Assembly: GCF_003663825.1 (NCBI RefSeq)
Contig: NZ_RCCC01000001.1
Location: forward strand, 566,501-630,500
Direction of reading: 5' to 3'
Source of the DNA: Acidovorax sp. 106
GTDB lineage: Bacteria > Pseudomonadota > Gammaproteobacteria > Burkholderiales > Burkholderiaceae_C
DNA: 64,000 bases
The notes under the pieces were generated by a model, which was not told the origin of the DNA, ran no database searches, and worked only from the letters and a program-made list of their open reading frames with translations. A program made the position numbers and the translations under genes. Positions 7,561 to 52,076 of this stretch are shown piece after piece (the first letter of the stretch is position 1; the number at the start of each line of letters is the position of its first letter).

Positions 7561-8775
7561 TCAGCGCTTCAGGCGCCGGGCGATTTCGCCCACCAGTTGC
7601 TGGGCCAGGGCGCGCTTGGAGGCGCGCGGCAGTTCGCGGTGCCCCTGCGCATCCACCAGCAGCAAGGCATTGTCATCCTGCCCAAACGTGGCCGGGCCAA
7701 TGTTGCCCACCAGCAGCGGCACGCCCTTGCGGGCGCGCTTGGCCGTGGCATGCGCCAGCAGGTCATGGCTTTCTGCGGCAAAGCCCACGCAATACAGCGC
7801 CCCCGACTGGGCCTGGGGCGACTGGGCCACGCGGGCGAGGATGTCGGGGTTCTCCACAAAATGCAGTGCAGGGGGTTGGCCCGAGCCGTCTTTCTTGATT
7901 TTCTCGGCCGACTGCGCCGCCACACGCCAATCGGCCACCGCCGCAGTTGCTATGAATACAGTAGCGCCTTGCGCCTGAGCCTCAACCGCTTGCAACATAT
8001 TTTGTGCTGATTTCACATCCACGCGCCGCACCCCACGGGGGGTGGGCAAGTGCACGGGCCCGGCCACCAGGGTCACATCGGCCCCGGCCTCGCGCGCCGC
8101 GCGGGCAATGGCAAAACCCATTTTTCCGCTGGAGAGATTGGTAATGCCCCGCACCGGGTCAATGGCCTCAAACGTAGGGCCGGCGGTGATCAGCACCCTC
8201 TGTCCGGCCAGCACCTTGGGCGCAAAAAAGGCGATCAGCTCTTCCAGCAACTCACTGGGCTCCAGCATGCGCCCATCGCCCGTCTCGCCGCAGGCCTGGT
8301 CGCCATGGCCCACCCCCAGCACCGTGGCGCCGTCTGCTGCCACCTGGGCCAAGTTGCGCTGGGTGGCGGGGTGTGCCCACATCTCACGGTTCATGGCAGG
8401 TGCCAGCAGCAGAGGCACTCGGTCGGTGGGGCGGGCCAGGCACATCAGGCTCAGCAGTTCGTCCGCGCGGCCCTGCACCAGCCGCGCGATGAAATCGGCA
8501 CTGCAAGGCGCAACCACGATGGCATCGGCCTCTCGGCTGAGGTTGATATGCGGCATGTTGTTGGGCTCACGGGCGTCCCACTGCGATCCGTACACGGGGC
8601 GGCCCGACAAGGCTTGCATGGTGACGGGCGTGATGAACTGCTCTGCAGCCTCGGTCATCACCACCTGCACGGTGGCCCCCGCTTTGATGAGCTGGCGGCA
8701 AAAATCGGCCGCCTTGTAGCAAGCCACGCCCCCACTCAGACCCAGAACAATGTGTTTGCCAGCAAGCTCATTCAT
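7561..8775 (-). CDS. coaBC: Bifunctional phosphopantothenoylcysteine decarboxylase / phosphopantothenate-cysteine ligase
   Basis: CoaBC (Dfp) makes 4'-phosphopantothenoylcysteine and decarboxylates it in coenzyme A synthesis. The 404-residue protein has an N-terminal flavin-binding CoaC half (G-G-V-A-C-Y-K, the active-site His in [18 protein letters not shown] and [11 protein letters not shown]) and a C-terminal CoaB half starting near residue 190 ([23 protein letters not shown] loop, L-S-S-G-K-M-G, A-A-V-A-D-W-R, K-I-K-K). The ATG at 8775 is used rather than an upstream in-frame start, because family proteins begin just before the first strand. A degenerate copy of the dispersed AGCGCT repeat underlies residues near 258-277, inside the CoaB core. 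The gene is divergent from pyrG. Confidence 0.96.
7946..8004 (-). repeat. Dispersed AGCGCT repeat, copy 1 (inside coaBC)
   Basis: On the minus strand the stretch ggcgcaaggcgctactg, then tattcatagcaac, matches the repeat arm seen at 48080-48115 (gcgcaggcagctacg, then ttttttatagca) at most positions. It is diverged and lies in frame within coaBC. Confidence 0.55.
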
Positions 8776-8874
8776 GGGCACGAATTTAGCAGACCCCACG
8801 CACATGGTCTTGCACGGGCGCGCAGATGCCCGGCCCCAGGCCCCATCTATAATCCCAATTTCCCACCACCATAA

Positions 8875-11702: not shown

Positions 11703-11730
11703 TCGCCTTTGTACTTGATCGCTCTCTAAT

Positions 11731-11768
11731 TGATAGCTGCTCGCGCTTACTAGATAAGCGCTAGAGCC
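11731..11768. repeat. Dispersed AGCGCT repeat, copy 2 (DUF1330-eno gap)
   Basis: The sequence tgatagctgctcgcgctta, a short loop and then taagcgctagagcc form the characteristic palindrome. It fills the gap before eno and ends about 35 bases upstream of the eno start. Confidence 0.85.
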
Positions 11769-11781
11769 CGATTTGATTTAA

Positions 11782-13089
<1,308 letters not shown>

Positions 13090-16282: not shown

Positions 16283-16393
16283 GCCACACACTCCGGTTGA
16301 GGTAAGTTAAGAAACCCATCAAGAAACAAATGGCTGCCAATTGTTTACAAAGCGTGTGCAGTGCGCCAGGTGGCAGGGCCTAGAATTGTAAGG

Positions 16394-17197
16394 ATGGAGC
16401 TTCGCCAACGTGCACTGCAGGTTTTACAGACTGCAGACCCATATCAAAAAGCGGCTGCAGCGCTAGATCTACAAGCGCAACTAGCTACACTTTCGATAGC
16501 AGACACATTCCCCACCGACACCGTGGACCCGGCCAGCTTGCCAGGCCACCCGGCCCGCCCTGCGCTGATGCGCCACACCGAAGTGGCCCGGCGCTCACCC
16601 GCCACGGCGCAAGGCCGAGCCATCCTGATCCACGCCATTGCGCACATTGAGTTCAACGCCATCAACCTGGCGCTGGACGCTGTATGGCGCTTTGACGCCA
16701 TGCCCGCAGACTATTACCGGGACTGGGTGCAAGTGGCGGCAGAAGAAGCCATGCACTTTGGCCTGCTGCGCGACCACCTGCGGGCCCAGGGGCATGACTA
16801 TGGCGACTTTCCCGCGCACCAGGGCCTGTGGACCATGTGCGAGAAAACCCAGCACGACATCGTCGCGCGCATGGCGCTGGTGCCCCGCACCATGGAAGCG
16901 CGAGGACTGGACGCCACCCCACAGATCCAGAACAAGCTGCGGCAAGTGGGCACGCCCGACGCCTTGCAAGCCGTGGAGATTTTGAACACCATCTTGCGCG
17001 ACGAAGTCGGGCATGTCGCCATAGGCAACCATTGGTACCGCTGGCTGTGCGAGCGCCAAGGCCTGAACCCCGAGACGCACTACGCCGAACTGGTCAAAAA
17101 GTACGAGGCTCCCCGGCTCAAGCCCCCCTTCAACGACGCAGCCCGCCGCCAGGCCGGCTTCACCGAAGCAGAGTTGCAGTGGCTGCAACAAGGCTGA
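16394..17197 (+). CDS. DUF455 family ferritin-like protein
   Basis: The 267-residue protein has the DUF455 ferritin-like four-helix pattern with diiron-type residues: A-H-I-E-F-N-A-I-N near 85, E-E-A-M-H-F-G near 118, a Glu in P-R-T-M-E-A-R-G near 162, and D-E-V-G-H-V-A near 204. Related proteins resemble MiaE-type and other carboxylate-bridged diiron enzymes, but the reaction is unknown. The ATG at 16394 is preferred over a GTG 33 bases upstream. A TAGAAT box at 16381-16386 ends only 7 bases before the ATG, so the message could be leaderless. Residues about 18-36 are encoded by a copy of the dispersed AGCGCT repeat. Confidence 0.88.
   Translation: MELRQRALQVLQTADPYQKAAAALDLQAQLATLSIADTFPTDTVDPASLPGHPARPALMRHTEVARRSPATAQGRAILIHAIAHIEFNAINLALDAVWRFDAMPADYYRDWVQVAAEEAMHFGLLRDHLRAQGHDYGDFPAHQGLWTMCEKTQHDIVARMALVPRTMEARGLDATPQIQNKLRQVGTPDALQAVEILNTILRDEVGHVAIGNHWYRWLCERQGLNPETHYAELVKKYEAPRLKPPFNDAARRQAGFTEAELQWLQQG
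16446..16500 (+). repeat. Dispersed AGCGCT repeat, copy 3 (inside DUF455 gene)
   Basis: The elements aaaaagcggctgcagcgctag, atct, acaagcgcaactagctac and tttcgatagc match, in order, the copy in mutL. The palindrome is in frame and encodes A-L-D-L-Q-A-Q-L-A-T-L-S-I-A. Confidence 0.7.
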
Positions 17198-27085: not shown

Positions 27086-27142
27086 GACTGCAGCGGGGTT
27101 GCGGCGGGGCCGTGGGCCCATCGACCAGCCCAATGGCAAACC

Positions 27143-27196
27143 GCTATCCATTTGATAGCTGCCAGCGCTTATCAAATAAGCGCTAGAGGCATAAAA
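27143..27196. repeat. Dispersed AGCGCT repeat, copy 4 (AEC-queG gap)
   Basis: The core gatagctgccagcgcttat, loop, ataagcgctagaggc forms a hairpin between two convergent genes. It is flanked by short AT-rich sequence (ctatccattt and ataaaacactt). Confidence 0.9.
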
Positions 27197-27216
27197 CACT
27201 TAAAGTAGGCTTGAAG

Positions 27217-30704: not shown

Positions 30705-30720
30705 TCCGAAAATTTCAAAA

Positions 30721-30763
30721 AAATAGCTGCCAGCGCTTGATTAGCAAGCGCTAGCAGCTATTT
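30721..30763. repeat. Dispersed AGCGCT repeat, copy 5 (best palindrome)
   Basis: The segment aaatagctgccagcgcttg (30721-30739) faces caagcgctagcagctattt (30745-30763), an almost perfect 19-bp inverted repeat with a 5-base loop. It lies between the convergent glycine-zipper and DedA genes, where it could also act as a terminator in both directions. Confidence 0.95.
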
Positions 30764-30780
30764 AATTGATAGCAAAAATA

Positions 30781-31431
30781 TCAGGCCGCAGCCTTCGATT
30801 GGCGGCCCGCACGCCAGGCCCCAAAGATCGCGATCACACCCGGCACCAAGATCAGCGCCCAGATGATCTTGTCCAGATTCTCCTTCACCCAGGCAAAGTT
30901 GCCAAAGAAGTAGCCTGCCGTGGCAATGCCCAGCACCCACAGCAGCGCACCGCCCACATTGAAGGCCGTGAACTTGGCACGGCTCATCTCTGCGACACCG
31001 GCCACAAAAGGCGCAAACGTGCGGATGAAGGGCATGAAGCGCGCGATCACGATGGTGATACCGCCATAGCGCTCGTAAAACGCGTGGGCCTGGTCAAACG
31101 CCTTGCGGTTGAACCAGCGCGAGTCTTCCCACTGGAACACCTTGGGGCCAAAGTAACGCCCAATGCTGTAGTTGCACTGGTCGCCCAAAATGGCCGCGGC
31201 GACCAACACAGCGCACGCCAGCGGAAAGTTCATCATCCCCGCGCCGCACAGCGCGCCCACGATGAACAGCAGCGAATCGCCCGGCAAAAACGGCATCACC
31301 ACCACGCCCGTTTCCACAAACACAATGAGGAACAGCAGCGCATACACCCACATCCCGTAGGTCTGCACGAAAGCCTCCAGGTGCTTGTCTACGTGCAGGA
31401 TGAAGTCGATCAGAAAGGTCACTATTTCCAT
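30781..31431 (-). CDS. DedA family inner membrane protein
   Basis: The 216-residue protein belongs to the DedA/VTT family: F-L-I-D-F-I-L-H-V-D-K-H-L at the start, the re-entrant loop E-T-G-V-V-V-M-P-F-L-P-G-D-S-L-L-F near residue 40, G-D-Q-C-N-Y-S-I-G-R near 85, and the second re-entrant segment R-F-M-P-F-I-R-T-F-A-P-F-V-A-G near 130, with Arg and Asp/Glu at the usual positions. DedA proteins are linked to lipid-carrier (undecaprenyl phosphate) or phospholipid flipping and to membrane energetics. The ATG at 31431 precedes the conserved N-terminus. It separates the tsaE-amiC block from mutL on the opposite strand. Confidence 0.92.
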   Translation of the reverse strand: MEIVTFLIDFILHVDKHLEAFVQTYGMWVYALLFLIVFVETGVVVMPFLPGDSLLFIVGALCGAGMMNFPLACAVLVAAAILGDQCNYSIGRYFGPKVFQWEDSRWFNRKAFDQAHAFYERYGGITIVIARFMPFIRTFAPFVAGVAEMSRAKFTAFNVGGALLWVLGIATAGYFFGNFAWVKENLDKIIWALILVPGVIAIFGAWRAGRQSKAAA

Positions 31432-31536
31432 GGGCTGGCCTTTGGGGGCTGGTGTGGGATGTATCAAAAACAGGCCGCATTATCCCTATGGCCCTGTAAC
31501 CAAATCCCCACCAACCCGACGCCTAAAATCCGTCCG

Positions 31537-33591
31537 GTGAACCCAACAGACTCCACCACCGACGCCCCCCTGGCCGCGCGCCGCCCCATCCGTGACCTGC
31601 CCGACGAACTCATCAGCCAGATTGCGGCTGGCGAGGTGGTGGAGCGCCCCGCCTCGGTGGTGCGCGAGCTGGTGGACAACGCCCTGGACGCCGGGGCCAC
31701 GCAAATCACCGTGCGGCTGCTGGCCGGTGGCGTGCGGTTGATATCGGTCGAGGACGATGGCCTGGGCATTCCCCCCGAAGAGCTGCCTGTTGCGCTGCGC
31801 CGCCATGCCACCAGCAAGATCACCAACCTGCACGACCTGGAAACCGTGGCCACCATGGGCTTTCGGGGCGAGGCGCTGGCGGCCATCAGCTCGGTATCGG
31901 AGATGGCCTTGCTCTCGCGCCCGCCCACGCAGGCCAGCGCCTTTTTGCTGGACGCCCGCAGCGGCGAGCTGCGCCCCGCCGCCCGCAGCCAGGGCACGAC
32001 CATCGAGGTCAAGGAGCTGTTCTTCTCCACCCCCGCGCGCCGCAAGTTCTTGAAGACCGACGCCACCGAGTTGGCGCACTGCATTGAATCGGTGCGCCGC
32101 CACGCGCTGGCGCGGCCCGATGTGGGCTTTGCCATCTGGCACGAAGGCAAGCTGGTGGAGCAATGGCGCGCCACCTTTGTGCCCGGCGAAGGCAACCCAC
32201 AAGACGCGCTGGCCCGCCGCCTGTCCGACGTGCTGGGCGAAGACTTCGTGCAGCAGTCCGTCACCGTGCAACACCGCGTGGGGCCCGTCACCGTTACCGG
32301 CCGTGCAGGCCTGCCCGACGCGGCCCGCTCGCGCCCCGACCACCAGTACTGCTACGTCAACGGCCGCTTTGTGCGCGACAAGGTGCTCACCCACGCCGCC
32401 CGCGCCGCGTACGAGGACGTGCTGCATGGCCACAAGCAGCCCATCTACGCGCTGTACGTTGAGATCGACCCCGCCCGTGTGGACGTGAACGTGCACCCCA
32501 CGAAGATCGAAGTGCGCTTTCGGGACAGCCGCGAAGTGCACCAAGCCGTGCGCCACGCGGTGGAAAACGCCCTGGCCGCACCCCGCGCTGCGGCCCTGGC
32601 GGCGGCCAATGCCGCCCAGGCCGCAGGCGACGGTGCAGCACCTGTGGCCAACACCACAGATTTAGAACAAAAAAGGCCTCTAGCGCCCGCCTGGCAAGCG
32701 CAAGCAGCTATCAAATTTGAAGAGCGCGGCCACCGCGTGCAAGACCTGCAGGCCCTGTGGGCGCCACGCGAAACCCCTCCCCCAGCGGCGCCAGACGCTG
32801 CGCTGGGCGGCCTGTGGGCACCCTCGGCGCAGCCCGGCGAGGCCACGGGCCAAAGCACCACGCCAGCCTCCATTGCTCTGCCCCCCAATGCGGCGAATGG
32901 GGATGCGAATGCGGCGGCGATGGGGGCCATGAGCCCCGCCACAAGCGATGCGCCCGCCAGCGAAGCCATGGTGTGGCCCGAGCAGCGCGGCGACAACGCA
33001 TCCGCCTGGCCCCTGGGCCGCGCCGTGGCGCAACTGCACGGCGTCTACATCCTGGCCGAAAACGCCCAGGGCATGGTGATTGTGGACATGCACGCCGCCC
33101 ACGAACGCATCGTGTACGAACGCCTCAAGGCCCAGGTAGACAGTGGCGCCCGCATTGCCAGCCAGCCGCTCTTGATCCCCGCCACCTTCGCCGCCACGCC
33201 GCAAGAAGTAGCCACCGCCGAAGAGTCTGCCGAGGTGCTGGCCACGCTGGGGCTGGAGGTCGTGCCCTTCTCACCCAAAACCCTGGCCGTGCGCGCCGTG
33301 CCCACCACGCTGGCGCAGGGCGATGCGGTAGAACTGGCCCGCAGCGTGCTGGCCGAACTGGCCGCGCACGACGCCACCACCGTGGTGCAACGCGCCCGCA
33401 ATGAAATCCTGGGCACCATGGCCTGCCACGGCGCGGTGCGGGCCAACCGCAAGCTCACCCTAGACGAGATGAACGCCCTGCTGCGCCAGATGGAAACCAC
33501 CGACCGCAGCGACCAGTGCAACCATGGCCGCCCCACCTGGCGGCAGTTGTCGATGAAAGAGCTGGACGGGTTGTTTTTGCGCGGGCGGTGA
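31537..33591 (+). CDS. mutL: DNA mismatch repair protein MutL (endonuclease type)
   Basis: The 684-residue protein starts with GTG at 31537. The N-terminal GHKL ATPase domain shows A-A-G-E-V-V-E-R-P, D-A-G-A-T, D-D-G-L-G-I, T-S-K-I and M-G-F-R-G-E-A-L. A long Ala/Pro-rich linker (about 350-490) follows, then the dimerisation domain. This carries D517-M-H-A-A-H-E-R-I-V-Y-E, a D-x-H-A(x)2E(x)4E motif, together with A-C-H-G-A-V-R-A and C-N-H-G-R-P-T at the C-terminus. These are the metal-site motifs of nicking MutL proteins, as expected in a lineage without MutH. The linker includes a copy of the dispersed palindrome. miaA, its usual neighbour, is about 10 kb downstream. Confidence 0.95.
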   Translation: MNPTDSTTDAPLAARRPIRDLPDELISQIAAGEVVERPASVVRELVDNALDAGATQITVRLLAGGVRLISVEDDGLGIPPEELPVALRRHATSKITNLHDLETVATMGFRGEALAAISSVSEMALLSRPPTQASAFLLDARSGELRPAARSQGTTIEVKELFFSTPARRKFLKTDATELAHCIESVRRHALARPDVGFAIWHEGKLVEQWRATFVPGEGNPQDALARRLSDVLGEDFVQQSVTVQHRVGPVTVTGRAGLPDAARSRPDHQYCYVNGRFVRDKVLTHAARAAYEDVLHGHKQPIYALYVEIDPARVDVNVHPTKIEVRFRDSREVHQAVRHAVENALAAPRAAALAAANAAQAAGDGAAPVANTTDLEQKRPLAPAWQAQAAIKFEERGHRVQDLQALWAPRETPPPAAPDAALGGLWAPSAQPGEATGQSTTPASIALPPNAANGDANAAAMGAMSPATSDAPASEAMVWPEQRGDNASAWPLGRAVAQLHGVYILAENAQGMVIVDMHAAHERIVYERLKAQVDSGARIASQPLLIPATFAATPQEVATAEESAEVLATLGLEVVPFSPKTLAVRAVPTTLAQGDAVELARSVLAELAAHDATTVVQRARNEILGTMACHGAVRANRKLTLDEMNALLRQMETTDRSDQCNHGRPTWRQLSMKELDGLFLRGR
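32661..32721 (+). repeat. Dispersed AGCGCT repeat, copy 6 (inside mutL linker)
   Basis: The order tttagaacaaaaaaggcctc, tagcgcccg, loop, caagcgcaagcagctatc, aaatttgaag matches the repeat. It is in frame and encodes L-E-Q-K-R-P-L-A-P-A-W-Q-A-Q-A-A-I-K-F-E within the variable MutL linker. Confidence 0.88.
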
Positions 33592-42274: not shown

Positions 42275-42302
42275 CCCACACGGTGCCTGCAACACCATCC
42301 CA

Positions 42303-42363: not shown

Positions 42364-42438
42364 ACTGGGGAAAAGTATGCGCACCAAAGTCCTCCTGGCT
42401 GAGTCCGCGATGGCTCAGACCTCTTGGAACATCTCTCG

Positions 42439-42464
42439 CCCGTTCGGGCTGAGCCTGTCGAAGC
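42439..42464 (+). repeat. Dispersed CGTTCGGGCTGAGC repeat, single unit
   Basis: The unit cccgttcgggctgagc followed by ctgtcgaagc lies in the 272-base gap before the MFS gene. It is preceded by ccgcgatggctcagacctct, a spacer that recurs in modified form at 45761-45785 near another unit. Confidence 0.85.
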
Positions 42465-42546
42465 CCTGCGCAGCGTTTTGCCATGCCCAGCATGACCGGG
42501 CCGACAGGGACAAGCCCCCTCCCCCATCTGGTACCCTCAGCCGGTT

Positions 42547-43800
42547 ATGTCTGCCCCTTCTGCCACCGCAGGCGCTGCGCCGCTCACGCCTGCCACGCCG
42601 CCTTCGCCCACACCCGGCCTGGCCATTCTGGTGCTGGCCCTGCTGCTAAGCATCCAGCCCGTCACCACCGACCTGTACCTGCCCGCGCTGCCCGCACTCA
42701 CCCGCGAGTTGGGTGCCACCGTGGCTGCTGGCCAGCTCACGCTCAGCGCGCTGCTGCTGGCCTTTGGCTGCTCGCAACTGGTGTGGGGCCCGCTGTCTGA
42801 CCGCCTTGGCCGCCGCCCGGTGCTGCTGGCGGGCCTGGGCATGTACACCGCCGCATCGGTGGCCAGCGCCCTGGCCCCCAGCATGGGCCTGCTGATCGTG
42901 TGGCGCGTGCTGCAAGGCGCGGCCATGGGCGCGGTGGTGATGTGCGCCCGCGCCATCGTGCGCGACCTGTACACGCCGCTGACCGGGGCACGCGCCATGT
43001 CCAAAGCCCTGACCGGGCTGGGCGTGGTGGCCTGTCTGTGCGCGCCCCTGGGCGGCATGCTCGCGCAGTGGCTGGGCTGGCGTGCGGCGCTGCTGGCCGT
43101 CACGGCCTACGCGCTGGCCACGCTGGCGCTGGTGGCGCTGCGCATGCCCGAGACAGTGCAGCACAAAAACCCGCTGGCACTGCAGCCCACCACGCTGCTG
43201 AGCAATTGGCGACTGGTGCTGGGGCACCCCACGTTCTGGGCGTTTTCGCTGCTCACCACGGCCACGTACTGCGGGCTGTTCACTTTTTTAGCGGCGTCGT
43301 CGTTCGTGTTCATCGAGGTGCTGCAGCTCACCCGCACGCAATACGGCTGGATGCTGCTGTCCACCAGCGCGGCGTATTTTGTGGGCACTTTTTTGTGCCG
43401 CTATCTGCTCGCGCGCCTGGGGCTGCGCCGCACCGTGGCGATGGCAGGGGGCTTGAGCCTGCTGGGCGGCTGCGGCATGGCCCTGGTGGCCCTGGCGGGC
43501 TGGCACCAGCCGGTGGCGCTGCTGGCGCCGTTTTACCTGTTCATGCTGGGCCACGGCATCCACCAGCCCTGCGGGCAAACGGGCTCGGTCGGGCCGTTTC
43601 CGCAGGCGGCGGGCGTGGCCTCGGCCCTCAATGGTTTTGTGATGATGCTGGCCGCCTTTGCCACGGGCGGCTGGGTAGGCTCCCACCTCAACGGCACCCT
43701 CTGGCCGCTGATCTACGGCGTGCTGTTCTGGTCCGTCGTGCTGGGCATTACATCCTGGACTTTGGTACAAAAATTTGGAGAACCGCGACATGCTGCCTGA
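42547..43800 (+). CDS. Bcr/CflA family MFS efflux transporter
   Basis: The 417-residue protein has twelve membrane helices and Bcr/CflA signatures: [15 protein letters not shown] near residue 36, the MFS loop [14 protein letters not shown] near 80, and [13 protein letters not shown] near 135. Family members export drugs such as bicyclomycin and chloramphenicol, or small peptides and cysteine; the substrate here is unknown. The ATG at 42547 is followed by an Ala/Pro-rich N-terminus of about 25 residues. Its 3' end overlaps the miaA start by 11 bases, so miaA translation may depend on it. Confidence 0.9.
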
Positions 43801-44815
43801 ACACCTGCCCAACATTGCGCTGGCAGGCCCTACCGCATCGGGCAAAACCGCCGGGGCGCTGGCCCTGGCTGCCGTGCTGGGGCGGCGCATGCCGGTCGAA
43901 ATCATCAGCGTCGATTCAGCCCTGGTCTACCGGGGCATGGACATTGGCACCGCTAAGCCCACGGCGGCAGAGCGCGCCGCCGTGCCGCACCACCTCATCG
44001 ATATCCGCGACCCGCTGCAGGCCTACAGCGCTGCCGAGTTTGTGCAAGACGCCACGCGCCTCATCGCCGAGATCCGCGCACGCGGTGCCCTGCCCCTGCT
44101 GGTGGGCGGCACCATGCTGTACTTCAAGGCGCTGATCGACGGCATTGACGACATGCCCGCCGCCGACCCCGAGGTGCGCGCCCAGCTAGAAGCCCAGGCC
44201 CAGGCCATTGGCTGGCCTGGCATGCACGCCGAGCTGGCCAAGGTAGACCCCACCACCGCCGCCCGCCTGGCGCCGGGCGACAGCCAGCGCATCCAGCGTG
44301 CGCTGGAGGTGTGGCATGTGTCGGGCCAGCCACTGTCGAGCTTTCACACTACAAAAAAAGGAGCTGCCAGCGCAAGCGCAGCAGGCGCTACAGCCCTTTT
44401 TTCTTTAGAACCCGACCACCGTGCCTGGCTGCACGAGCGCATAGCCCAGCGGTTTGACGCCATGCTGGCCGCAGGCTTTATGGACGAGGTGCGCGGCCTG
44501 CGCGCACGCGGCGACCTGCATGCCGACCTGCCATCGATGCGCTGCGTGGGCTACCGGCAAGCGTGGGACGAGCTGGACTACCAGGCCCGCAAAGGCCCCG
44601 ACGCGCCGCTGAACATCGCCCACTTCCGCGAGCGCGGCATCGTTGCAACTCGCCAGCTGGCCAAGCGCCAGGTGACCTGGCTGCGCAGCATGCCCGAGCG
44701 CCACGCCATCGCCTGCGACCAGCCCACCGCCGTGGCCGCACTGGTGCAGGCCGTGCTGCAGCGGCTGGACCAGGCAGACAAGCCAGCCGCCGCATCCAAA
44801 GAAACCAGCGCCTGA
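43790..44815 (+). CDS. miaA: tRNA dimethylallyltransferase
   Basis: MiaA transfers a dimethylallyl group to A37 of tRNAs reading UNN codons. The 341-residue protein has the P-loop G-P-T-A-S-G-K-T at 13-20, [18 protein letters not shown] near 45, L-I-D-I-R-D-P near 72, V-G-G-T-M-L-Y-F near 105, and M-R-C-V-G-Y-R-Q near 250. The ATG at 43790 has GGAGA upstream and overlaps the end of the MFS gene by 11 bases; a TTG at 43775 is the alternative. A copy of the dispersed palindrome is inserted in frame near residues 188-207, in the loop before H-R-A-W-L-H-E-R-I. Confidence 0.95.
44350..44410 (+). repeat. Dispersed AGCGCT repeat, copy 7 (inside miaA)
   Basis: The pattern actacaaaaaaaggagctgc, cagcgcaagcgcagc, aggcgctacagcc, cttttttctttagaa keeps the repeat layout with A- and T-rich ends. 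It is in frame and encodes [20 protein letters not shown]. Confidence 0.85.
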
Positions 44816-44921: not shown

Positions 44922-45611
44922 ATGCCCGCCCCCACGCTGAGCCCCACGCCCACCCTGTCCGTCCAGCACCTGGGCAAGCACTACGGCAGCACCGCGGTGT
45001 TTTCGCAGGTGGACTTCAGCGTGGCGCCTGGTGAGTTTGTGGCCATCGTGGGCGATTCGGGCGTGGGCAAATCCACCCTGCTCAACTGCCTGGCCGGGCT
45101 GGACCAGTGGGACCAGGGCGACATCACCTACACCGCCCAGGCTGGCACCAGCACCCGCTTGGCCGACCTGGACGACACCGCCCGCGCCCTGTGGCGCCGC
45201 GCCCATGTGGGCTTTGTGTTCCAGGCCTTCCACGTGCTGCCGCACCTGGACGTGGCGCAAAACGTGGCCCTGCCGCTGATGCTGCTGGGCCAGACAGACC
45301 CTGCGCGTGTTCAACGCATGCTCGATGCCGTGGGCCTGGGCACGCTGGGCAACCGCCTGCCCCAGCAACTGAGCGGCGGGCAACTGCAGCGCGTGGCCAT
45401 CGCCCGCGCCCTGGTGCACCGCCCCGGCCTGCTGCTGGCCGACGAGCCCACCGGCAACCTCGACCCCACCACGGCAGCTTTGGTCATGGACCTGCTGCTG
45501 GCCCAAACGCGCGAGCACGGCGCATCGCTGGTGCTGGTCACGCACTCTGACGCCGCCGCAGCCCGCGCCGACCGGGTGCTGCGGCTGACGGCCAGCGGCA
45601 TGGTGGGCTGA
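44922..45611 (+). CDS. ABC transporter ATP-binding protein (LolD/YbbA-like)
   Basis: The 229-residue protein is a complete ABC ATPase: Walker A G-D-S-G-V-G-K-S-T near residue 44, Q-loop F-V-F-Q-A-F-H near 100, signature L-S-G-G-Q-L-Q-R-V-A near 148, Walker B L-L-L-A-D-E-P-T-G-N-L-D near 168, and the His switch V-T-H-S near 204. It belongs to the MacB/LolD/FtsE-type group that pairs with FtsX-like permeases. The permease gene at 46142 follows on the same strand, but 530 bases of repeat-rich DNA lie between them, which is unusual for such a pair. It probably drives export or extraction of a lipid or envelope component. Confidence 0.92.
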   Translation: MPAPTLSPTPTLSVQHLGKHYGSTAVFSQVDFSVAPGEFVAIVGDSGVGKSTLLNCLAGLDQWDQGDITYTAQAGTSTRLADLDDTARALWRRAHVGFVFQAFHVLPHLDVAQNVALPLMLLGQTDPARVQRMLDAVGLGTLGNRLPQQLSGGQLQRVAIARALVHRPGLLLADEPTGNLDPTTAALVMDLLLAQTREHGASLVLVTHSDAAAARADRVLRLTASGMVG

Positions 45612-45638
45612 GCCCGCCTACGCGTTACGCCGCCTCGC

Positions 45639-46107
45639 GCAGCGCTTCGACAAGCTCAGCGTGAACGGTCGGGGGAAGGCGCACCCCAAAGCCCCGCCCC
45701 ACACGTTCAGACTGAGCCCGTCGAAGCCAGGGCACATCACCCCACCCGTTCGGGCTGGGCCCGCCATGGCACGGATCTCTTGGAACCCCAAATACCCGTT
45801 CGGGCTGAGCCCGTCGAAGCCGGGGCACGCCCACCCAGACCTCGTAGGTCGGGTTAGCCCGCAAGGGCGTAACCCGACGCCCACAGGGCACGCAGCGTTG
45901 ACGTCGGGTTACGCTGCGCTAACCCGACCTACACAGCTGAATCTACCCACGCGTCGCACAGTGCAGCGCTTCGACAAGCTCAGCGTAAACGGTTGGGGAA
46001 AGCACATGCCCCCCAGCCCCCCATCCACTGGGGCTGAGCCTGCGATGGCCTGGGCCGCTTTGAACCAGCACTTTGAACCAGCCCACCCGTTCGAGCCTGT
46101 CGAAGCC
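45639..46107. repeat. Repeat cluster between the ABC ATPase and permease genes
   Basis: The 530-base gap 45612-46141 holds no gene. It contains CGTTCGGGCTGAGC units at 45702-45727 (diverged), 45744-45770 (partial), 45794-45820 and 46085-46107 (shortened), inverted units gcttcgacaagctcagc at 45639-45668 and 45964-45992, and a different palindrome pair at 45843-45932. Parts of a longer composite unit, with gatggc and ctcttggaacc spacers, recur. The gap therefore looks like a hot spot where repeats accumulate, splitting an operon. Confidence 0.85.
45843..45932. repeat. TCGGGTTA palindrome pair
   Basis: The unit cgtaggtcgggttagcccg, then caagggcgtaacccgacg (45843-45879), is followed by acgtcgggttacgctgcgct, then aacccgacctaca (45901-45932). 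Each folds on itself through cgggtta/taacccg, and the two units are also inverted relative to each other through gtaggtcggg/cccgacctac. Confidence 0.85.
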
Positions 46108-46141
46108 AGGGCACACCCCACGCCAGCGGCACAATGCCCCC

Positions 46142-48820
46142 ATGCTCGCACTGCTTCGCACCTTCTCGTGGCAAGACCTGCGCCACCACCCTTGGCGCAG
46201 CGCCGCCGCCGTGGCTGCCGTCATGCTGGGCGTGGCGCTGGCGTTTGCCGTGCACGTCATCAACGCATCGGCGCTGGACGAGTTCTCGCAGGCCGTGCGC
46301 GCCGTCAACGGCCAGCCCGATCTGGAAGTGCGCGCCATGCAGGGCACGCTGGGCGAAGACCTGTTTGCCCAAATCGCCACCCACCCCGACGTGGCCCGCG
46401 CCAACCCGGTGCTGGAGGCCACAGCCATGGCCCGCCCTGCAGCCTCCACAGCATCCACAGCCCCCACCGAGGCACAAGCCCCCTCCAACGACGCCATCCC
46501 CCTGCGCCTGCTGGGGGCCGATGCCCTGCTGCTGCCCGCCATGGCCCCGGCCCTCATGCCCCGGCCGTGGGAAGGCGCGGCACGCGATGCACTCTTTGCC
46601 CCCGCCACGGTTTACCTCAACCCCGCCGCCCTGCAAGCGCTGGGCGTGCCGCCCGAAGGCACCCAGCCCCGCCCCACGCTGCAACTGCAAACCGGCCTGC
46701 AAACCCTGACCGTGCAAGTGGCAGGCACCGTGAGCGCCCCCGGCGCCCCACTGGCGGTGATGGACATTGGCGCTGCGCAAGACCTGCTGGGCCGCGTGGG
46801 CCAGCTCACCCGCATCGACCTGCAACTGCAGCCCGGCACCGACCGCAGCGCCTTCCAACAATCGCTGCAAGCCCTGCCCGGCTGGCCCGCGCAGGCCACG
46901 CTGGCCGAGCCGGGCGATGCGGCGCAGCGGGTGAGCAACCTCTCGCGCGCCTACCGTGTGAACCTGACGGTGCTGGCGCTGGTGGCGCTGTTCACCGGGG
47001 CGTTTTTGGTGTTCTCGGTGCTGGCCCTGAGCGTGGCGCAGCGCGGGCCGCAGTTTGCGCTGCTGGCCGTGCTGGGCGCCACCCCGCGCCAGCGACTGGC
47101 GCTGGTGCTGGCCGAATCGGCCCTGCTGGGCCTGGTGGGCAGCCTGGCCGGGCTGGCACTGGGCACGGCCCTGGCCAGCGCAGCGCTGCAGTTGCTGGGT
47201 GGCGACCTGGGCGGTGGCTACTTTGCCGGGGTGCAGCCCCGCTTGCAGTGGAGCTTGAGCGCCGCCCTGCTGTACGGCAGCCTGGGCGTGACCGCCGCCG
47301 TGGTGGGCGGCTGGTGGCCCGCCCGCGCCGCGCAAGCCCTGCCGCCTGCGCAAACCCTCAAAGGCATGGGCAGCGCCAGCGGGCGCGCCGGGCGGGGCTG
47401 GGTGGGTATGGTTTTGATAGCTGCCAGCGCTTTATTGGCGGCGCTTCCGCCCATTTTTGGCATTCCACTGGCGGCCTATGTAGCGATTGGCCTGCTGCTG
47501 GTGGGCGGCATTGCCCTGCTGCCCTGGGGCGTGGCCTGGCTGCTGCAGCGGCTGCAGCCCCTGGCCGTGCGCCACCCGCTGACCCTGCTGGCGCTGGAGC
47601 GTGCGCGCCGCATGCGCGGCACCGCCGCCATTGCCGTGGGCGGCGTGGTGGCCAGCCTGAGCCTGGCCGTGGCGCTGACGGTGATGGTGGCCAGCTTTCG
47701 CGGCTCGGTCATCCAGTGGCTGGACGCGGTGCTGCCATCGCCGCTGTACGTGCGCTCGGCACTGCAAGCCGCTGGCGGCGACGCTGCGCTGCTGCCCCCC
47801 GGCTTTGCCGAAGCGGTGGCCCGCCTGCCGGGTGTGGACAAGGTATCGCCCCTGCGCACCAGCCCCCTGCAACTGAGCGCCGCCCGCCCCGCCCTCACCG
47901 TGCTCAGCCGCCCCCTTGGCACCGACCCCGCCCAGGTGCTGCCCCTCACCGGCCCCGCTTTGCCCGTGCCCACCGGGCAAATCGGCGTGTATGTGAGCGA
48001 GGCGGTGGTGGACCTGTACGGCGTGCGCCCCGGCCAGGCGTGGCCCGAACTTTCCAAGGCTTTTATGCCTGTAGCGCCCGATCATCAAGCGCAGGCAGCT
48101 ACGTTTTTTATAGCAGGCGTGTGGCGCGACTATGTGCGCCAGACCGGGGCCATTACCCTCGACAGCGCCGCCTACCAGCACCTGACGGGCGACACCCGCA
48201 TCAGCGATCTGGCCCTGTGGCCTGCCGAGGGGGTGGACATGGCTGCACTGCAAGGCCACATCCGCAACGCGGCGCAGCAGGCCAGCGCGGCAGCACCAGC
48301 GGGCTCCAGCGACTCAGGTGCCGCCAACAGCAACGTGGATGGCAACCCGCCCCTGGTCGAATTTGTCTCCGCCCAATCCATCCGCGAACGCTCGCTGCAA
48401 ATTTTTGACCGCAGCTTCGCCGTCACCTACTGGCTGCAGGCCGTGGCCATTGGCATCGGCCTGTTCGGCGTGGCCGCCAGCTTCAGTGCCCAGGTGCTGG
48501 CCCGCCGCAAAGAGTTCGGCCTGCTCGCCCACCTGGGCCTCACCCGCCGCCAAATCCTGGCCGTGGTGGCAGGCGAAGGCGCGGCGTGGACGGGCATTGG
48601 CGCCATCGCTGGCGTGCTGCTGGGCCTGGCCGTTTCCGTAGTGCTGGTGCACGTGGTCAACCCGCAGAGTTTTCACTGGACGATGGAGATGAACATCCCC
48701 GCCCCGCGCTTGTGGGCGCTGTGTGCGGCGGTGGTGGTGTCGGGGACGGTGACTGCGTGGCTGGCTGGGCGAGCGGCGGCGGGGAGGGATGCGGTGATGG
48801 CGGTGAAGGAGGATTGGTAG
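46142..48820 (+). CDS. FtsX-like ABC transporter permease
   Basis: The 892-residue inner-membrane protein has an N-terminal helix (near residues 20-40), a periplasmic MacB-PCD-like region, an FtsX domain with three helices near 275-400 (L-L-A-V-L-G-A-T-P-R-Q-R-L is the coupling segment), a short pair of helices near 425-465, a second periplasmic region, and a second FtsX domain near 765-890 (L-L-A-H-L-G-L-T-R-R-Q-I-L). This two-FtsX layout is that of the LolC-like/YbbP exporters. With the ATPase at 44922 and the lipocalin-like gene at 52101 it probably forms an envelope export system. Two dispersed palindromes lie inside it in frame. Confidence 0.9.
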   Translation: MLALLRTFSWQDLRHHPWRSAAAVAAVMLGVALAFAVHVINASALDEFSQAVRAVNGQPDLEVRAMQGTLGEDLFAQIATHPDVARANPVLEATAMARPAASTASTAPTEAQAPSNDAIPLRLLGADALLLPAMAPALMPRPWEGAARDALFAPATVYLNPAALQALGVPPEGTQPRPTLQLQTGLQTLTVQVAGTVSAPGAPLAVMDIGAAQDLLGRVGQLTRIDLQLQPGTDRSAFQQSLQALPGWPAQATLAEPGDAAQRVSNLSRAYRVNLTVLALVALFTGAFLVFSVLALSVAQRGPQFALLAVLGATPRQRLALVLAESALLGLVGSLAGLALGTALASAALQLLGGDLGGGYFAGVQPRLQWSLSAALLYGSLGVTAAVVGGWWPARAAQALPPAQTLKGMGSASGRAGRGWVGMVLIAASALLAALPPIFGIPLAAYVAIGLLLVGGIALLPWGVAWLLQRLQPLAVRHPLTLLALERARRMRGTAAIAVGGVVASLSLAVALTVMVASFRGSVIQWLDAVLPSPLYVRSALQAAGGDAALLPPGFAEAVARLPGVDKVSPLRTSPLQLSAARPALTVLSRPLGTDPAQVLPLTGPALPVPTGQIGVYVSEAVVDLYGVRPGQAWPELSKAFMPVAPDHQAQAATFFIAGVWRDYVRQTGAITLDSAAYQHLTGDTRISDLALWPAEGVDMAALQGHIRNAAQQASAAAPAGSSDSGAANSNVDGNPPLVEFVSAQSIRERSLQIFDRSFAVTYWLQAVAIGIGLFGVAASFSAQVLARRKEFGLLAHLGLTRRQILAVVAGEGAAWTGIGAIAGVLLGLAVSVVLVHVVNPQSFHWTMEMNIPAPRLWALCAAVVVSGTVTAWLAGRAAAGRDAVMAVKEDW
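47411..47457 (+). repeat. Dispersed AGCGCT repeat, copy 8 (inside ABC permease)
   Basis: The segment gttttgatagctgccagcgc, then tttattggcggcgcttccgc and ccattttt, keeps the left arm well and the right arm poorly. It is in frame and encodes part of a membrane helix, V-L-I-A-A-S-A-L-L-A-A-L-P. Confidence 0.75.
48057..48115 (+). repeat. Dispersed AGCGCT repeat, copy 9 (inside ABC permease)
   Basis: The segment aaggcttttatgcctgtagc, gcccgatcatcaagcgcagg, cagctacgttttttatagca shows both arms and the AT-rich ends. It is in frame and encodes M-P-V-A-P-D-H-Q-A-Q-A-A-T-F-F-I-A in the second periplasmic region. Confidence 0.88.
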
Positions 48821-49015
48821 CACACGCTTTTCCCTTCCGGTTTCATACGAACCTTCCTATAACGCCCCCACAACCATGTCGAAAAAAGTTGGGGTCAATT
48901 TTTTGTAATCTATGCAGTGACACTCTGAATTCAAGTCAAGCCTCAAGCTCTTTTTGCTTTGGTATTGACGAGCATTTACATAAACTGTGCGCAATAACCA
49001 CCAGAGGAGAAAATT

Positions 49016-50734
49016 TTGGCAAGTATCAGTCAAGGCTCGACGGCATCCAAGGCTAGCAACGTGGATCCCAGAAAGGAAATGCTGACAGCTATCGATGGCG
49101 TGGCAAAACGTGGCGGTATCTCGAGAGATAAAGCCATCACTGCGTGGTACGCGTCGACGTTGCTAGGGATTGACGAAGACGAGGCAATTGACGCAGCCTC
49201 TGTCGATGGCTCGGAGGACAACGGCTGCGACTTTATCTATATCGATAATGACCAAGAAGTTGTATATGTTCTCCAAGGCTACGTTTCCGACCGAGCGGAT
49301 CGAAGCGCAGGAATCAAGAAGTGGAATGCGCTGGTTGCGGCAGTTACCAACATTAATGATCCAATCTCTTTCCAGCATGGCGGACGCCGAGATATATTTG
49401 ACCTTCTCACAGAAGTAGACATCTCGCATTATTCTCGAGTTTTTGGCCTTGTAACCCTAGCAGCAAAATCTGATCAAATTGCTAGACAACGTGAAGCAAC
49501 AGTGCGCGCAAGGACCTATGGGCCAGAGGCAACCTTTTTTTATGAATATCAAGAGTCGATTTATGACAAGTTTGTGATAGCTCGAGCGGCGGACCGTAAT
49601 GTCACAGAAGACGCAATTACATTCTCCGGCCCAGTCGCAGATATCAAGGGTGACTTCGGACAAGCCATTGTTGGTTCCGTAGCGGCATCTGAACTAGCCA
49701 GGCTACATGAAAAATACAACAATCAGTTATTTGAAGGAAATGTGCGCCTCTTTATCGGCGAACGAAAAGGCGGAATTAATGAGAAAATTGTCGAAACGGC
49801 AAATAATCGACCTGGTGACTTCTGGGCACTAAACAATGGAATTACCATAGTTGCCGACAGTTTCGAAAATGTTGGTGGCAACAAGTATCTAATACGACGA
49901 TTTTCGGTTGTAAACGGGTGCCAGACAACGGTTAGCTTGACACGAGCAATTGAAAAATCTCCAGATGCGGGCAAAGCACAAGTTCTCGCAAGAATAGTGG
50001 GCGCCAAAAAAGCTTTATTAACCGACATCGTCCGTTACAACAATACTCAGAATCCAGTAAAGCTAGCAGCAGTCCGCTTACTAGACCCCATTCAGGAGAG
50101 TCTGCGAAGCGCCTTTTCTACCATCGAATACGTTTATGCACCTAAACAGGAAGGTGCAAAAACTGCAAAAAGCGCCAAACGAATAGAGCTTGATCGCATC
50201 ACACAATATCTAGCTGCCATGTCAGAAGACACGGTTTTAGAGTCAGTAGCGAAGAAAGCCGAGCTTTTTGATCGCTCGTATAAAAACATATTTCCTCGCG
50301 GATTAAAACCTGAACGCGTAATGCTTGCATGGCTCCTAGCCCAAGAAATAGAAAATGAAAGAGCACAACTGCTTAATGCACAAGAGGGAGATTCCGATCC
50401 AATAATGAAAGCTATTCTCGGAATTCATGGAACGCCCTGGGGAATATACGTTGCAAATACACTAATCGAGAAATCAGGCTCTGACATGAGCAAGCTAACA
50501 TTAAAGAGAATGATCTCACCTGATTTCAATGCTGCGCTCAAAAAGTACGCAAAAAGAGCTATGGAGCTGTACTCAGAAATCGCTGTCAACATAGTGACCA
50601 CAGACGAGGCCGACTCTTCAACACGGAATGAATTACGAGCGAAGCCATTCTTGGAAAAGTTAAAAAGAAACCTCGCACTACGCATGGCGCGAATTGGAAC
50701 CTGGAAGTTGCCTAAGCTAAACTCTGTCGGCTAA
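49016..50734 (+). CDS. AIPR-family protein (putative abortive-infection phage resistance)
   Basis: The 572-residue protein has the AIPR core: L-F-E-G-N-V-R-L-F-I-G near residue 240, N-N-R-P-G-D-F-W-A-L-N-N-G-I-T-I-V near 262-278, V-V-N-G-C-Q-T-T at 298-305, and a D-I-V-R-Y-N-N-T-Q-N-P-V segment near 340. The N-terminal part (D72-F-I-Y-I-D, then Y-V-L-Q87-G-Y) resembles the nuclease-like fold found ahead of AIPR domains, but the usual Q-x-K reads Q-G-Y. It starts with TTG at 49016 behind a strong AGGAGA. Base and codon use are clearly AT-rich compared with every neighbour, a sign of horizontal transfer. It is a single gene with AT-rich flanks; defence function is inferred from the family. Confidence 0.85.
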   Translation: MASISQGSTASKASNVDPRKEMLTAIDGVAKRGGISRDKAITAWYASTLLGIDEDEAIDAASVDGSEDNGCDFIYIDNDQEVVYVLQGYVSDRADRSAGIKKWNALVAAVTNINDPISFQHGGRRDIFDLLTEVDISHYSRVFGLVTLAAKSDQIARQREATVRARTYGPEATFFYEYQESIYDKFVIARAADRNVTEDAITFSGPVADIKGDFGQAIVGSVAASELARLHEKYNNQLFEGNVRLFIGERKGGINEKIVETANNRPGDFWALNNGITIVADSFENVGGNKYLIRRFSVVNGCQTTVSLTRAIEKSPDAGKAQVLARIVGAKKALLTDIVRYNNTQNPVKLAAVRLLDPIQESLRSAFSTIEYVYAPKQEGAKTAKSAKRIELDRITQYLAAMSEDTVLESVAKKAELFDRSYKNIFPRGLKPERVMLAWLLAQEIENERAQLLNAQEGDSDPIMKAILGIHGTPWGIYVANTLIEKSGSDMSKLTLKRMISPDFNAALKKYAKRAMELYSEIAVNIVTTDEADSSTRNELRAKPFLEKLKRNLALRMARIGTWKLPKLNSVG

Positions 50735-51020
50735 ACATTAGCTTTTTTATTATTTATGACAGTGATCCCTCTGAAAAGTTAATGCAATATTTACTGAAAG
50801 GCTATTGACTACCTAAATTCGGTTTTGCTGCACAATGCAATCCTTTTCCAGCTTGACGTCTTTGGCGAAAGATTCTTCCATCCAATGTGAAGCAAGAATC
50901 TGTGCATATGCAGCACTGTTCAGCAAGGAATTTCATTTGCGCAGCAAAGCCCCTGAATTCTGTTAAAGACGGGCCTAGGCACTACAGCAGTTCGGCCCCA
51001 TTCTCTCGATAAGTTGTCAT
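50735..51020. other. AT-rich non-coding flank of the AIPR gene
   Basis: This 286-base stretch continues the AT-rich composition of the AIPR gene until roughly base 50960. No open frame, RNA gene or clear terminator is visible apart from a short T-rich run just after the stop. With the 195 bases upstream of the gene (48821-49015) it marks the likely extent of the acquired segment; I found no convincing flanking direct repeat. Confidence 0.5.
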
Positions 51021-52076
51021 ATGGAATCCCCCTCCCCCTGGCTCCACGAAGCCATCGCCCGCATCGAAGCCGACTACCAGCGCAGCGCCGATACCCACCT
51101 GATCCCGCTGCGCCTGCCTGCCTTTGCTGCGCACGGCATTGACCTGTACCTCAAGGACGAATCCACGCACCCGACGGGCAGCCTGAAGCATCGGCTGGCG
51201 CGGTCGCTGTTTTTGTATGCGCTGTGCAATGGCTGGCTGCATGAGGGCTCGACGGTGGTGGAGGCGTCGAGCGGCTCCACGGCAGTGAGCGAGGCCTACT
51301 TTGCGCGGCTGCTGGGCTTGCCGTTTGTGGCGGTGATGCCGCGCAGCACCTCGCCCGAGAAGATTGCGCAGATCGAGTTCCACGGTGGGCGCTGCCATCT
51401 GGTGGGCAGTGCGGGCCAGGTGTATGAGGAGGCCCGCGCCATTGCGGCGGAGACGGGCGGGCATTACATGGACCAGTTCACCTATGCCGAGCGGGCCACC
51501 GACTGGCGGGGCAACAACAACATTGCCGAGAGCATGTTCACCCAGATGGCGCGCGAGCGGCACCCGGTGCCGCGCTGGATTGTGGTGGGCGCAGGCACGG
51601 GCGGCACCAGCGCCACCATTGGCCGTTATGTGCGCTACCAGCGGCACGCCACGCAGGTGTGCGTGGCCGACCCGGCGGGCTCGGTGTTCAGCGCCTACCA
51701 CCGCACGGGCGATGCCAGCCTGACGGCCCCGGGCTCGCGCATCGAGGGCATTGGCCGCCCCCGGGTGGAGCCCAGCTTTATCCGCACGCTGGTAGACCGC
51801 ATGGTGGATGTGGCGGATGTGGATTCGGTGGCAGCGATGCGAGTGCTGTCGCAACTGCTGGGGCGGCGCGTGGGGCCATCCACCGGCACCAACTTTGTGG
51901 CGATGCTGACGCTGGCGCATGAGATGCGTGAGCGGGGCGAGAGCGGCTCGATCTTGTCGTTGCTGTGCGATGCGGGGGAGCGGTATTTGCCCACGTACTA
52001 CAACGGCGACTGGGTGTCTGCCACCATGGGTGACTGCACCGAGGCGCAGGCGCGCATTGCGGCGCTGCTGGATTGA
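51021..52076 (+). CDS. PLP-dependent L-cysteine desulfhydrase, Cds1-like (cysteine synthase family)
   Basis: The 351-residue protein is a fold-type II PLP enzyme of the cysteine synthase family. The PLP Lys56 lies in T-G-S-L-K-H-R, the substrate loop in [11 protein letters not shown] near residue 78, and the phosphate-binding loop in [10 protein letters not shown] near 190. The [13 protein letters not shown] segment and the C-terminal G-P-S-T-G-T-N-F are those of Cds1-type enzymes, which release sulfide from cysteine, rather than of CysK/CysM. The lipocalin-like gene starts 24 bases downstream, so they are probably co-transcribed. GC content is back to that of the chromosome. Confidence 0.87.

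Follow-up and report, generated by a model that had tools for sequence, protein, structure and literature searches.

A degenerate palindromic repeat read within unrelated genes of Acidovorax sp. 106, a candidate DNA-level signal

The locus and its repeat family

The window, a 64,000-nucleotide stretch of the Acidovorax sp. 106 genome, harbors genes for an FtsX-like ABC permease, MutL, MiaA, CoaBC and a DUF455 protein, all of which contain a copy of the same dispersed repeat (Table 1). The repeat is a long, degenerate near-palindrome of about 64 bp with A+T-rich ends and the consensus AATTGCTATTAAATTAATAGCTGCTAGCGCTTATTTAATAAGCGCTAGAGGCCATTTTTATTTAAAA. It is found mostly between genes; 464 kb of the genome hold 53 copies scoring 25 bits or more, and in this unbiased sample 8 of 58 copies are genic. 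Extrapolation to the whole genome gives about 560 copies, 14% of them genic. The family is full-length, has a definable consensus and numbers well above a hundred copies. Scoring used a profile made from 128 intergenic copies; the search model had been seeded with seven copies, four of them genic, and the own-genome sample consists of the best 150 of 2221 candidates and is biased to strong copies. Genes were called from codon usage, which placed the start of the DUF455 gene downstream of its repeat.

Table 1. Genes and repeat copies in the window
Feature	Positions	Strand	Support
coaBC	7561..8781	-	PF04127, PF02441
Weak repeat copy in the minus-strand gene coaBC, frame opp2	7947..8006	+	14.0 bits, E 0.0017 (64-kb window)
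Intergenic repeat copy	11718..11784	+	61.9 bits
DUF455 gene	16361..17197	+	PF04305, E 3e-95
Repeat copy in DUF455 gene, frame opp2	16445..16502	-	29.5 bits, E 2.5e-8
Intergenic repeat copy	27142..27205	+	56.0 bits
Almost completely palindromic intergenic repeat copy, upstream of mutL	30718..30775	-	56.6 bits
mutL (start chosen; true start may be further downstream)	31381..33591	+	PF08676, PF01119
Repeat copy in mutL linker, frame opp2	32659..32722	-	49.1 bits, E 1.9e-14
miaA (IPP transferase)	43775..44815	+	PF01715, E 3.8e-85
Repeat copy in miaA, same orientation as gene, frame same2	44348..44411	+	33.7 bits
FtsX-like ABC permease gene	46142..48820	+	PF02687, E 5e-25
Second, partial permease copy, orientation opposite to the first, frame same2	47408..47458	+	25.1 bits, E 5.9e-7
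Repeat copy in permease gene, frame opp2	48052..48115	-	42.9 bits, E 1.6e-12

Comparison of the window with Rfam gives no match at or above any family's gathering score. The core ATAGCTGC occurs there six times, never outside the repeat copies, and no short over-represented core was found outside them. Among 156 copies, regular spacing was rejected (coefficient of variation 0.99), as was an orientation set by replichore: in negative-skew bins 43 copies are plus and 30 minus, and in positive-skew bins 48 are plus and 35 minus.

Peptides and codons within the host genes

A sequence-only reading of the window had proposed that one repeat yields a shared peptide in four unrelated proteins. The four peptides lie exactly where it implied: HQAQAATFFIA in the permease (48083-48115, +), WQAQAAIKFEE in MutL (32692-32724, +), LQAQLATLSIA in the DUF455 protein (16469-16501, +) and the CoaBC peptide at 7948-7977 (-). 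Pfam assigns the four hosts to the FtsX permease, MutL, DUF455 and DFP/Flavoprotein families, confirming that they are unrelated. The repeat itself is weak in coaBC compared with the permease, MutL and DUF455 genes; the coaBC site of the sister genome G030 scores 30.5 bits. Copies beyond these four are also present, in miaA (44348-44411) and as the second permease copy (47408-47458); of 80 permease loci, 11 have a match in the orientation of the latter near the equivalent position, with positions computed assuming no gaps.

The attribution of the likeness to a DNA element was borne out by synonymous recoding, in which none of 3000 recoded sequences reached the real repeat score in each of seven genic cases (six sites, with CoaBC taken in two genomes). 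The likeness is therefore a DNA-level signal, beyond what chance and protein likeness provide. The repeat codons are also kept across genera. Codon conservation in the permease gene is highest at 48052..48115 among 23 Acidovorax, and relative to the codon usage of the gene the repeat region gives z 5.3 in these 23 and z 5.6 in 19 sequences from other genera; both sets were picked by hand, the first leaving out the repeat-less L174, L176, L177 and L212 and the second being a mixture. Codons ending in A or T make up 0.75 of those at the permease repeat as against 0.15 gene-wide. In MiaA, codon conservation peaks at the repeat (z 4.6, the top of the gene), and in MutL the repeat is the second-ranked region (z 3.6), in both cases over all covering loci. 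For each of these two genes 28 other Acidovorax loci span the repeat site, of which 25 have the mutL copy and 22 the miaA copy, with L277 and L307 leaving repeat sites uncovered; the intergenic copy upstream of mutL has a counterpart at about the same place in 17 of 26.

That the peptides derive wholly from the repeat was not confirmed. In the permease the segment F-F-I/V-A-G-V-W-R-D-Y is conserved, with few exceptions, in relatives that lack the repeat. The 11-residue CoaBC stretch is likewise conserved, again with few exceptions, in repeat-less relatives. The peptide endings F-F-I-A and V-F-I-A belong to the host proteins and are kept where the repeat is absent.

The further suggestion that the element is a source of new protein segments is contradicted for two of the hosts, in which alignments show no insertion at the repeat copy. 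CoaBC has no gap in alignment with any of 25 other Acidovorax, whose repeat scores are graded from 30.5 to 0, and its repeat segment also aligns gaplessly with solved CoaBC proteins. The DUF455 protein has no residues extra to repeat-less relatives such as L408, L412 and L413, and several others are longer at this point. At least in part, these alignments give the outcome that the sequence-only reading had itself set against its proposal, namely residues that are ancestral in species without the repeat. By eye, the protein differences in CoaBC resemble ordinary divergence. At the permease, MiaA and MutL copies there may have been an old insertion; permease and MiaA orthologs of equal length that carry no repeat match exist.

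Reading frames and orientation

A single preferred frame and orientation, corresponding to opp2, had also been proposed, and this was not upheld: genic copies are found in both orientations and mainly in three frames. Of the genic copies in the sampled loci, 22 score over 30 bits, with nine in opp2, seven in same2, four in opp0, and one each in opp1 and same1, a tally that includes the permease and MutL copies, excludes those of DUF455 and CoaBC, leaves out the 3 of 25 genic copies below 30 bits, and counts among its four opp0 "genes" a 32-codon open reading frame that is probably spurious. When the 128 intergenic copies are read in all frames, same2 is stop-free in 51, opp2 in 26, opp0 in 25, same0 in 12, opp1 in 2 and same1 in none. 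The genic restriction thus arises mostly because stop codons close the other frames. What remains of a preference for opp2 is weak (p 0.04) and subject to sampling bias, as four of the seven model seeds were genic; the eight genic copies of the unbiased 464-kb sample divide into three in opp2, three in same2 and two in others.

Conservation between genomes

Comparison with G030, which is 93.5% identical, places 46 of 47 mapped copies in both genomes, and no clean empty site was found among the 47. The 50 kb absent from G030 fully enclose none of the copies that reach 25 bits, as against 47 in the 354 kb that are shared (p 0.003, with some exceptions). Identity between the two genomes is 92.2% at the high-information columns of the repeat, 92.4% in other intergenic DNA and 87.5% at the low-information columns, and constraint is therefore visible only against the last of these. 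The copies, which are probably old, are positionally stable with respect to this one relative and placed regardless of strand.

Across 26 genomes, the number of strong copies correlates with the score of the mutL copy (rho 0.81) and of the miaA copy (rho 0.74), kinship being ignored and counts of 71 standing for at least 71. G002 and G005 have no strong copies, and in neither genome does mutL or miaA give a match at E 0.01. G003 and G027, with one site uncovered, were omitted from the absent/shared test and the correlation tables, and the incomplete G012 and G036 from the correlation.

Possible origins and maintenance of the repeat

On balance, we lean slightly toward the repeat being a DNA-level signal that is maintained in trans and is not insertional. 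At the DNA level, a motif of about 64 bp would be preserved by the majority of the Acidovorax examined and by some related genera, and inside genes it would overwrite host codons, chiefly by the selection of synonymous codons, in any frame that is stop-free and yields a peptide tolerable to the host protein. The A-Q-A-A-like residues of unrelated proteins would then be shared because the motif is written over codons in usable frames. All copies would be maintained at once by a candidate trans-acting recognizer. Gradual drive of this kind predicts a continuum of weak matches, and its absence from coding sequence, where 2 real matches of 5-11 bits compare with 1-5 in eight shuffles, counts against trans-maintenance.

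That same absence accords with an extinct mobile palindromic element, similar to those of Rickettsia, which inserted into genes and spacers before the genera diverged and survives as relics in frame, other insertions having been lethal. We regard such an origin as possible though unlikely: it accords with a full-length family of well over a hundred copies and with the confinement to stop-free frames, whereas the absence of an insertion in CoaBC and DUF455 and the lack of any empty site among the mapped copies speak against it. The permease site is common to Diaphorobacter, Polaromonas and Giesbergeria and was found in none of the 26 loci titled Variovorax, where the loop is shorter in several cases, a distribution that suits an insertion, and decay of a former copy could account for the orthologs of equal length that show no match; yet in relics the A/T-ending codons, about 15% of those gene-wide, should erode and are instead kept. 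The single Y1 transposase gene of the genome also has no copy in its fetched locus.

A link to RAYT transposases was examined separately and is unsupported, with the sole own-genome Y1_Tnp gene (locus L040) as above and 1 of 13 Y1 loci (L044) holding one repeat copy.

The strong hairpin of the consensus (-21.2 kcal/mol) could indicate a REP-like intrinsic terminator or mRNA-stabilizing structure at gene ends, with occasional genic copies, which we consider improbable. In sampled loci centered on copies, gaps of 70-400 nt hold a copy in 35 of 54 convergent, 72 of 158 codirectional and 5 of 45 divergent cases, and enrichment between convergent and depletion between divergent genes does fit a terminator. 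Beside codirectional genes, however, 44 copies are opposite and 43 the same in orientation, showing no strand preference, the stem displays neither excess pairing nor compensatory covariation among the 128 intergenic copies, and strongly conserved copies lie in the middle of long genes. The orientation and covariation results do not fit an intrinsic terminator. Very improbable is ectopic gene conversion from other copies, rewriting short stretches of host genes at unchanged length: it would yield gapless CoaBC and DUF455 copies and leave no weak-match continuum, but needs conversion over about 60 bp of low similarity, and the CoaBC protein differences noted above look like ordinary divergence.

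What a signal maintained in trans might do can be suggested only tentatively. It could mark self DNA for recognition in natural transformation, its copies being propagated and repaired through biased uptake and recombination, a leading candidate role that we nevertheless hold to be possible but doubtful; a site that binds a chromosome-associated protein and is kept by ordinary selection is about as likely. The fullest version of the first idea seems to us unlikely, namely that a palindromic uptake-type signal of about 64 bp, belonging to the Comamonadaceae, has been driven genome-wide into the codons of conserved genes, so that the DNA signal rather than the protein would decide the synonymous codons and some of the amino acids at shared sites in different genera, and the motif would decay everywhere at once after loss of its recognizer. 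If the motif is maintained via synonymous codons, such repeats would be more than inert or selfish insertions, and the codons used in these conserved genes would partly serve another system. Genomes with few or no strong copies, such as G002 and G005, provide natural controls.

Comparison with known systems

The palindromic elements of Rickettsia are insertions that are read in frame inside unrelated proteins. The present repeat resembles them in being palindromic and in appearing as a peptide in unrelated proteins, and differs from them in that its CoaBC and DUF455 copies, aligned with homologs lacking the element, are not inserted. It is also similar to BRE, described in part of PMC3110155 as a short repeat of Betaproteobacteria, including Acidovorax, with some copies inside coding sequence. 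Identity with BRE was rejected by description, as the features published there (75-91 bp, 69% mean G+C in Bordetella, sometimes tandem) do not fit a dispersed repeat with A+T-rich ends.

Among uptake sequences, a 12-bp motif is repeated almost 1,500 times in Neisseria, according to a passage of PMC2346458, and sections of PMC1939737 describe such sequences as non-palindromic, with 35-65% in reading frames, and as arising by point mutation in existing sequence. Going by these sections, the uptake sequences of the Neisseriaceae and Pasteurellaceae, at 9-12 bp and non-palindromic, differ from a degenerate palindrome of about 64 bp and an extrapolated 560 or so copies. A short exact core in about 1000 or more copies was not found, given 53 copies (at least 25 bits) in 464 kb and six occurrences of ATAGCTGC in the window. 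An origin in existing sequence would suit CoaBC and DUF455, set against coding DNA that holds no weak-match continuum.

The motif is a candidate for the transformation sequence specificity reported in Acidovorax temperans and Verminephrobacter eiseniae. In the relevant portion of PMC4212676, natural competence is reported for A. temperans and A. facilis, A. temperans accepted DNA from its own species only and was not transformed by DNA from A. facilis, A. defluvii or A. delafieldii, and competence was undetectable in the latter two. The permease copy is present in these three species (L175, L172 and L194), and the motif alone would therefore not explain the species barrier.

A close precedent lies in a section of PMC5217627 that gives counts and gene context, and in that section no frames, orthologous positions, codon-level conservation or mechanism. 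Its Polaromonas naphthalenivorans pair, ATAGCT(N)22CAAAAG, with 18 of 125 in genes, fits the present motif only loosely. The Acidovorax ebreus pair, GCTTAT(N)5AAGCG, with 114 copies of which 107 are intergenic, 5 genic and 44 between convergent genes, is contained in the consensus found here.

Makeup and abundance of the repeat

The repeat consensus, drawn from 128 intergenic copies, spans some 64-70 bp, with A+T-rich ends, and contains a GCTAT...ATAGC box together with an AGCGCTT/AAGCGCT stem. In the single-contig genome of Acidovorax sp. 106 (4,884,083 bases), a covariance model gave 150 matches at 149 places among the 150 candidates scored, the best of 2221. Within an unbiased 464-kb stretch, 35 copies score 40 bits or more and another 18 score 25-40 bits, which extrapolates to around 560 copies genome-wide. 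Of the copies scoring 20 bits or more in this stretch, 58 in all, most are intergenic (46, with 4 across a gene end and 8 genic), yet the coding share of bases is 82% by our own gene caller. At a strict threshold, the repeat occurs in 37 of 69 genomes and in 10 of the 40 genera examined. The closest named records in a scan for the window's genome are from Acidovorax, and the permease of Acidovorax temperans DSM 7270 has 95% identity to that of the window, in a scan that may omit own-genome records.

Searches of the open literature on uptake signals and on palindromic repeats in Acidovorax and Comamonadaceae returned no title or abstract opening describing the repeat. Among the literature examined, as far as its texts were accessible, the motif was found in PMC5217627 alone, the available part of which describes it as paired motifs in A. 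ebreus, where 5 of its 114 copies fall within genes.

Features of the window noted alongside the repeat copies in genes
Feature	Position	Description
Intergenic repeat copy	30718-30775	Near-perfect palindrome, scoring on both strands
Codon-conservation peak in the mutL frame	31456-31491	Strongest in the frame, near the start
Second dispersed repeat family	42298-42499, 41301-41344, 45603-46123	Arms CGTTCGGGCTGAGC / GCTTCGACAAGCTCAG
Stretch of 45% G+C adjoining the permease	~48819-51028	No aligned counterpart in the fetched region of the close relative G030; possibly acquired DNA
ORF in this stretch	49016-50734	572 codons

Genic copies and their reading frames

The sequence-only reading was that the repeat encodes a shared peptide, and it suggested that the element is tolerated preferentially in one frame and orientation, making it a source of new protein segments. 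The four peptides that it named do stand at the expected places, all read in a single frame of the repeat, and their hosts (CoaBC, a DUF455 protein, an FtsX-like permease, and MutL) are four unrelated families. A profile of this genome's 128 intergenic copies gives strong matches to the copies in the permease, MutL, and DUF455 and a weak one to that in CoaBC (14.0 bits, E 0.0017), and adds two genic copies absent from that list, in MiaA and at a second permease site.

Genic copies account for 25 of 167 copies in the sampled loci. With frames named by orientation relative to the gene (opp or same) and a frame digit, the 22 genic copies above 30 bits fall as opp2 9, same2 7, opp0 4, opp1 1, and same1 1, a tally that includes one opp0 case in a 32-codon, probably spurious ORF and excludes DUF455 and CoaBC, both opp2. 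Stop-free frames in the 128 intergenic copies number 51 for same2, 26 for opp2, 25 for opp0, 12 for same0, 2 for opp1, and 0 for same1. The genic frames depart clearly from equal use of all six (p 0.0017) and weakly from the stop-free expectation (p 0.03; opp2 alone p 0.04), in a sample biased by a search model of which 4 of the 7 seeds were genic copies. The claimed frame, opp2, is thus real, yet it is mostly what stop codons leave, along with same2 and opp0.

Host residues and the question of insertion

In the permease, aligned Variovorax sequences keep F-F/Y-V/I-A-G-V/I-W-R-D-Y with few exceptions, and none of the 26 loci titled Variovorax has the repeat there; repeat-bearing species spell these residues with the repeat's codons (for instance, of 23 Acidovorax sequences, 21 use ATA and all 23 use GCA). 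Relatives that lack the repeat largely retain the S-L-E-P of MiaA. The CoaBC segment aligns without gaps in 25 other Acidovorax and against the solved proteins 1u7u and 6tgv, from E. coli and a mycobacterium. Its match to the repeat is graded, from 30.5 bits in G030 through the value in the own genome down to nothing; of the 25 other genomes, 7 match at E 1 or below and 18 do not. In DUF455, match-less relatives such as L408, L412, and L413 show no gap over the length of the repeat, and additional residues occur at the site in several others; therefore, nothing has been added in this protein. Orthologs of equal length and with no repeat match also occur for the permease (loci L197, L208, L220, and L229) and MiaA (L340 and L344), and these could alternatively be decayed copies. 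The MutL site lies in a linker of variable length.

In five Polaromonas permeases (L217, L219, L235, L239, and L240), the segment resembling the repeat has an extended tail (RAQAAIDSIA or a similar sequence), after which comes the ancestral F-Y/F-V-A-G, so that repeat and host residues stand in another register than in Acidovorax.

Evidence for maintenance at the DNA level

Under the genome's codon usage, none of 3000 synonymous recodings reached the real repeat score in any of seven genic cases. Codon conservation, relative to gene codon usage, is highest at the repeat both in the permease (23 Acidovorax sequences with the site and 19 hand-picked from other genera) and in MiaA. In MutL the repeat ranks second, behind a region close to the uncertain start; this suggests that translation really begins further downstream and that the top region belongs to the leader. 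Across 30 Acidovorax genomes at E 0.01, 28 other loci cover each of the MutL and MiaA sites, and 25 of them carry the MutL copy and 22 the MiaA copy; the permease site matches in 29 of 80 loci, among them Diaphorobacter, Polaromonas, and Giesbergeria. Upstream of mutL, 17 of 26 covering loci share the intergenic copy.

When at most 71 candidates per genome are scored, strong copies number 62 to 71 in G000, G007, G011, and G030 and none in G002 and G005; a looser cut with 150 candidates scored gives one in G005 and none in G002. The mutL and miaA sites of these last two genomes have no match at E 0.01, and at E 0.05 the G002 miaA site gives 11.8 bits. The G002 sites look decayed, and those of G005, GC-rich in their codons, may never have carried the motif. 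Over 26 genomes, strong copy number correlates with copy score at mutL (rho 0.81) and miaA (rho 0.74), both without phylogeny correction, as would be expected of a genome-wide maintaining process.

Mobility

Long aligned blocks of the own genome and G030 have a mean identity of 93.5%. The 61 own copies examined, all scoring 12 bits or more, include 14 that were unmappable; of the remaining 47, 46 have a same-place partner. Interval lengths differ by at most 5 bases in 40 of the 47; the remaining 7 show differences of 9 to 4610 bases, four of them of 58 to 139 bases. The partnerless copy falls in a region with a difference of over 1 kb between the genomes, as do three of four unpaired G030 copies, the fourth being unmappable, and no clean empty site was seen among the 47. 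In 50 kb absent from G030 there is no complete copy scoring 25 bits or more, versus 47 in 354 kb shared; a 39-bit copy starts at such a segment's last base, and a 21-bit copy, below the cut, lies inside one. This fits both old copies and an uptake signal. The own genome has one Y1-type (RAYT-like) transposase gene of about 250 codons, at locus L040, and no repeat copies flank it.

A candidate uptake signal

Beside codirectional genes the copies show no orientation preference (43 versus 44), gaps between convergent genes often hold a copy and those between divergent genes rarely do, and no covariation was found in the stem; these features favour a strand-symmetric DNA signal rather than an RNA hairpin.

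Such a signal may serve uptake in natural transformation. The accessible part of PMC4212676 reports natural competence for both A. temperans and A. facilis, the uptake of markers by A. temperans from its own species only, and apparently selective binding in the related Verminephrobacter; no signal sequence is named in that part. Against uptake, the same source reports that DNA of A. facilis, A. defluvii, and A. delafieldii failed to transform A. temperans, and the motif is present in the permease genes of all three. Also against it, identity to G030 in high-information columns (92.2%) is above that in low-information columns (87.5%, p 0.0004) but not above other intergenic DNA (92.4%), and weak intermediate matches are lacking in coding DNA (335 genes). 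The repeat is also long, palindromic, and low in copy number for an uptake signal. In favour, known uptake sequences, as described in the available part of PMC1939737, evolve through point mutation of existing sequence and have no chromosome orientation bias.
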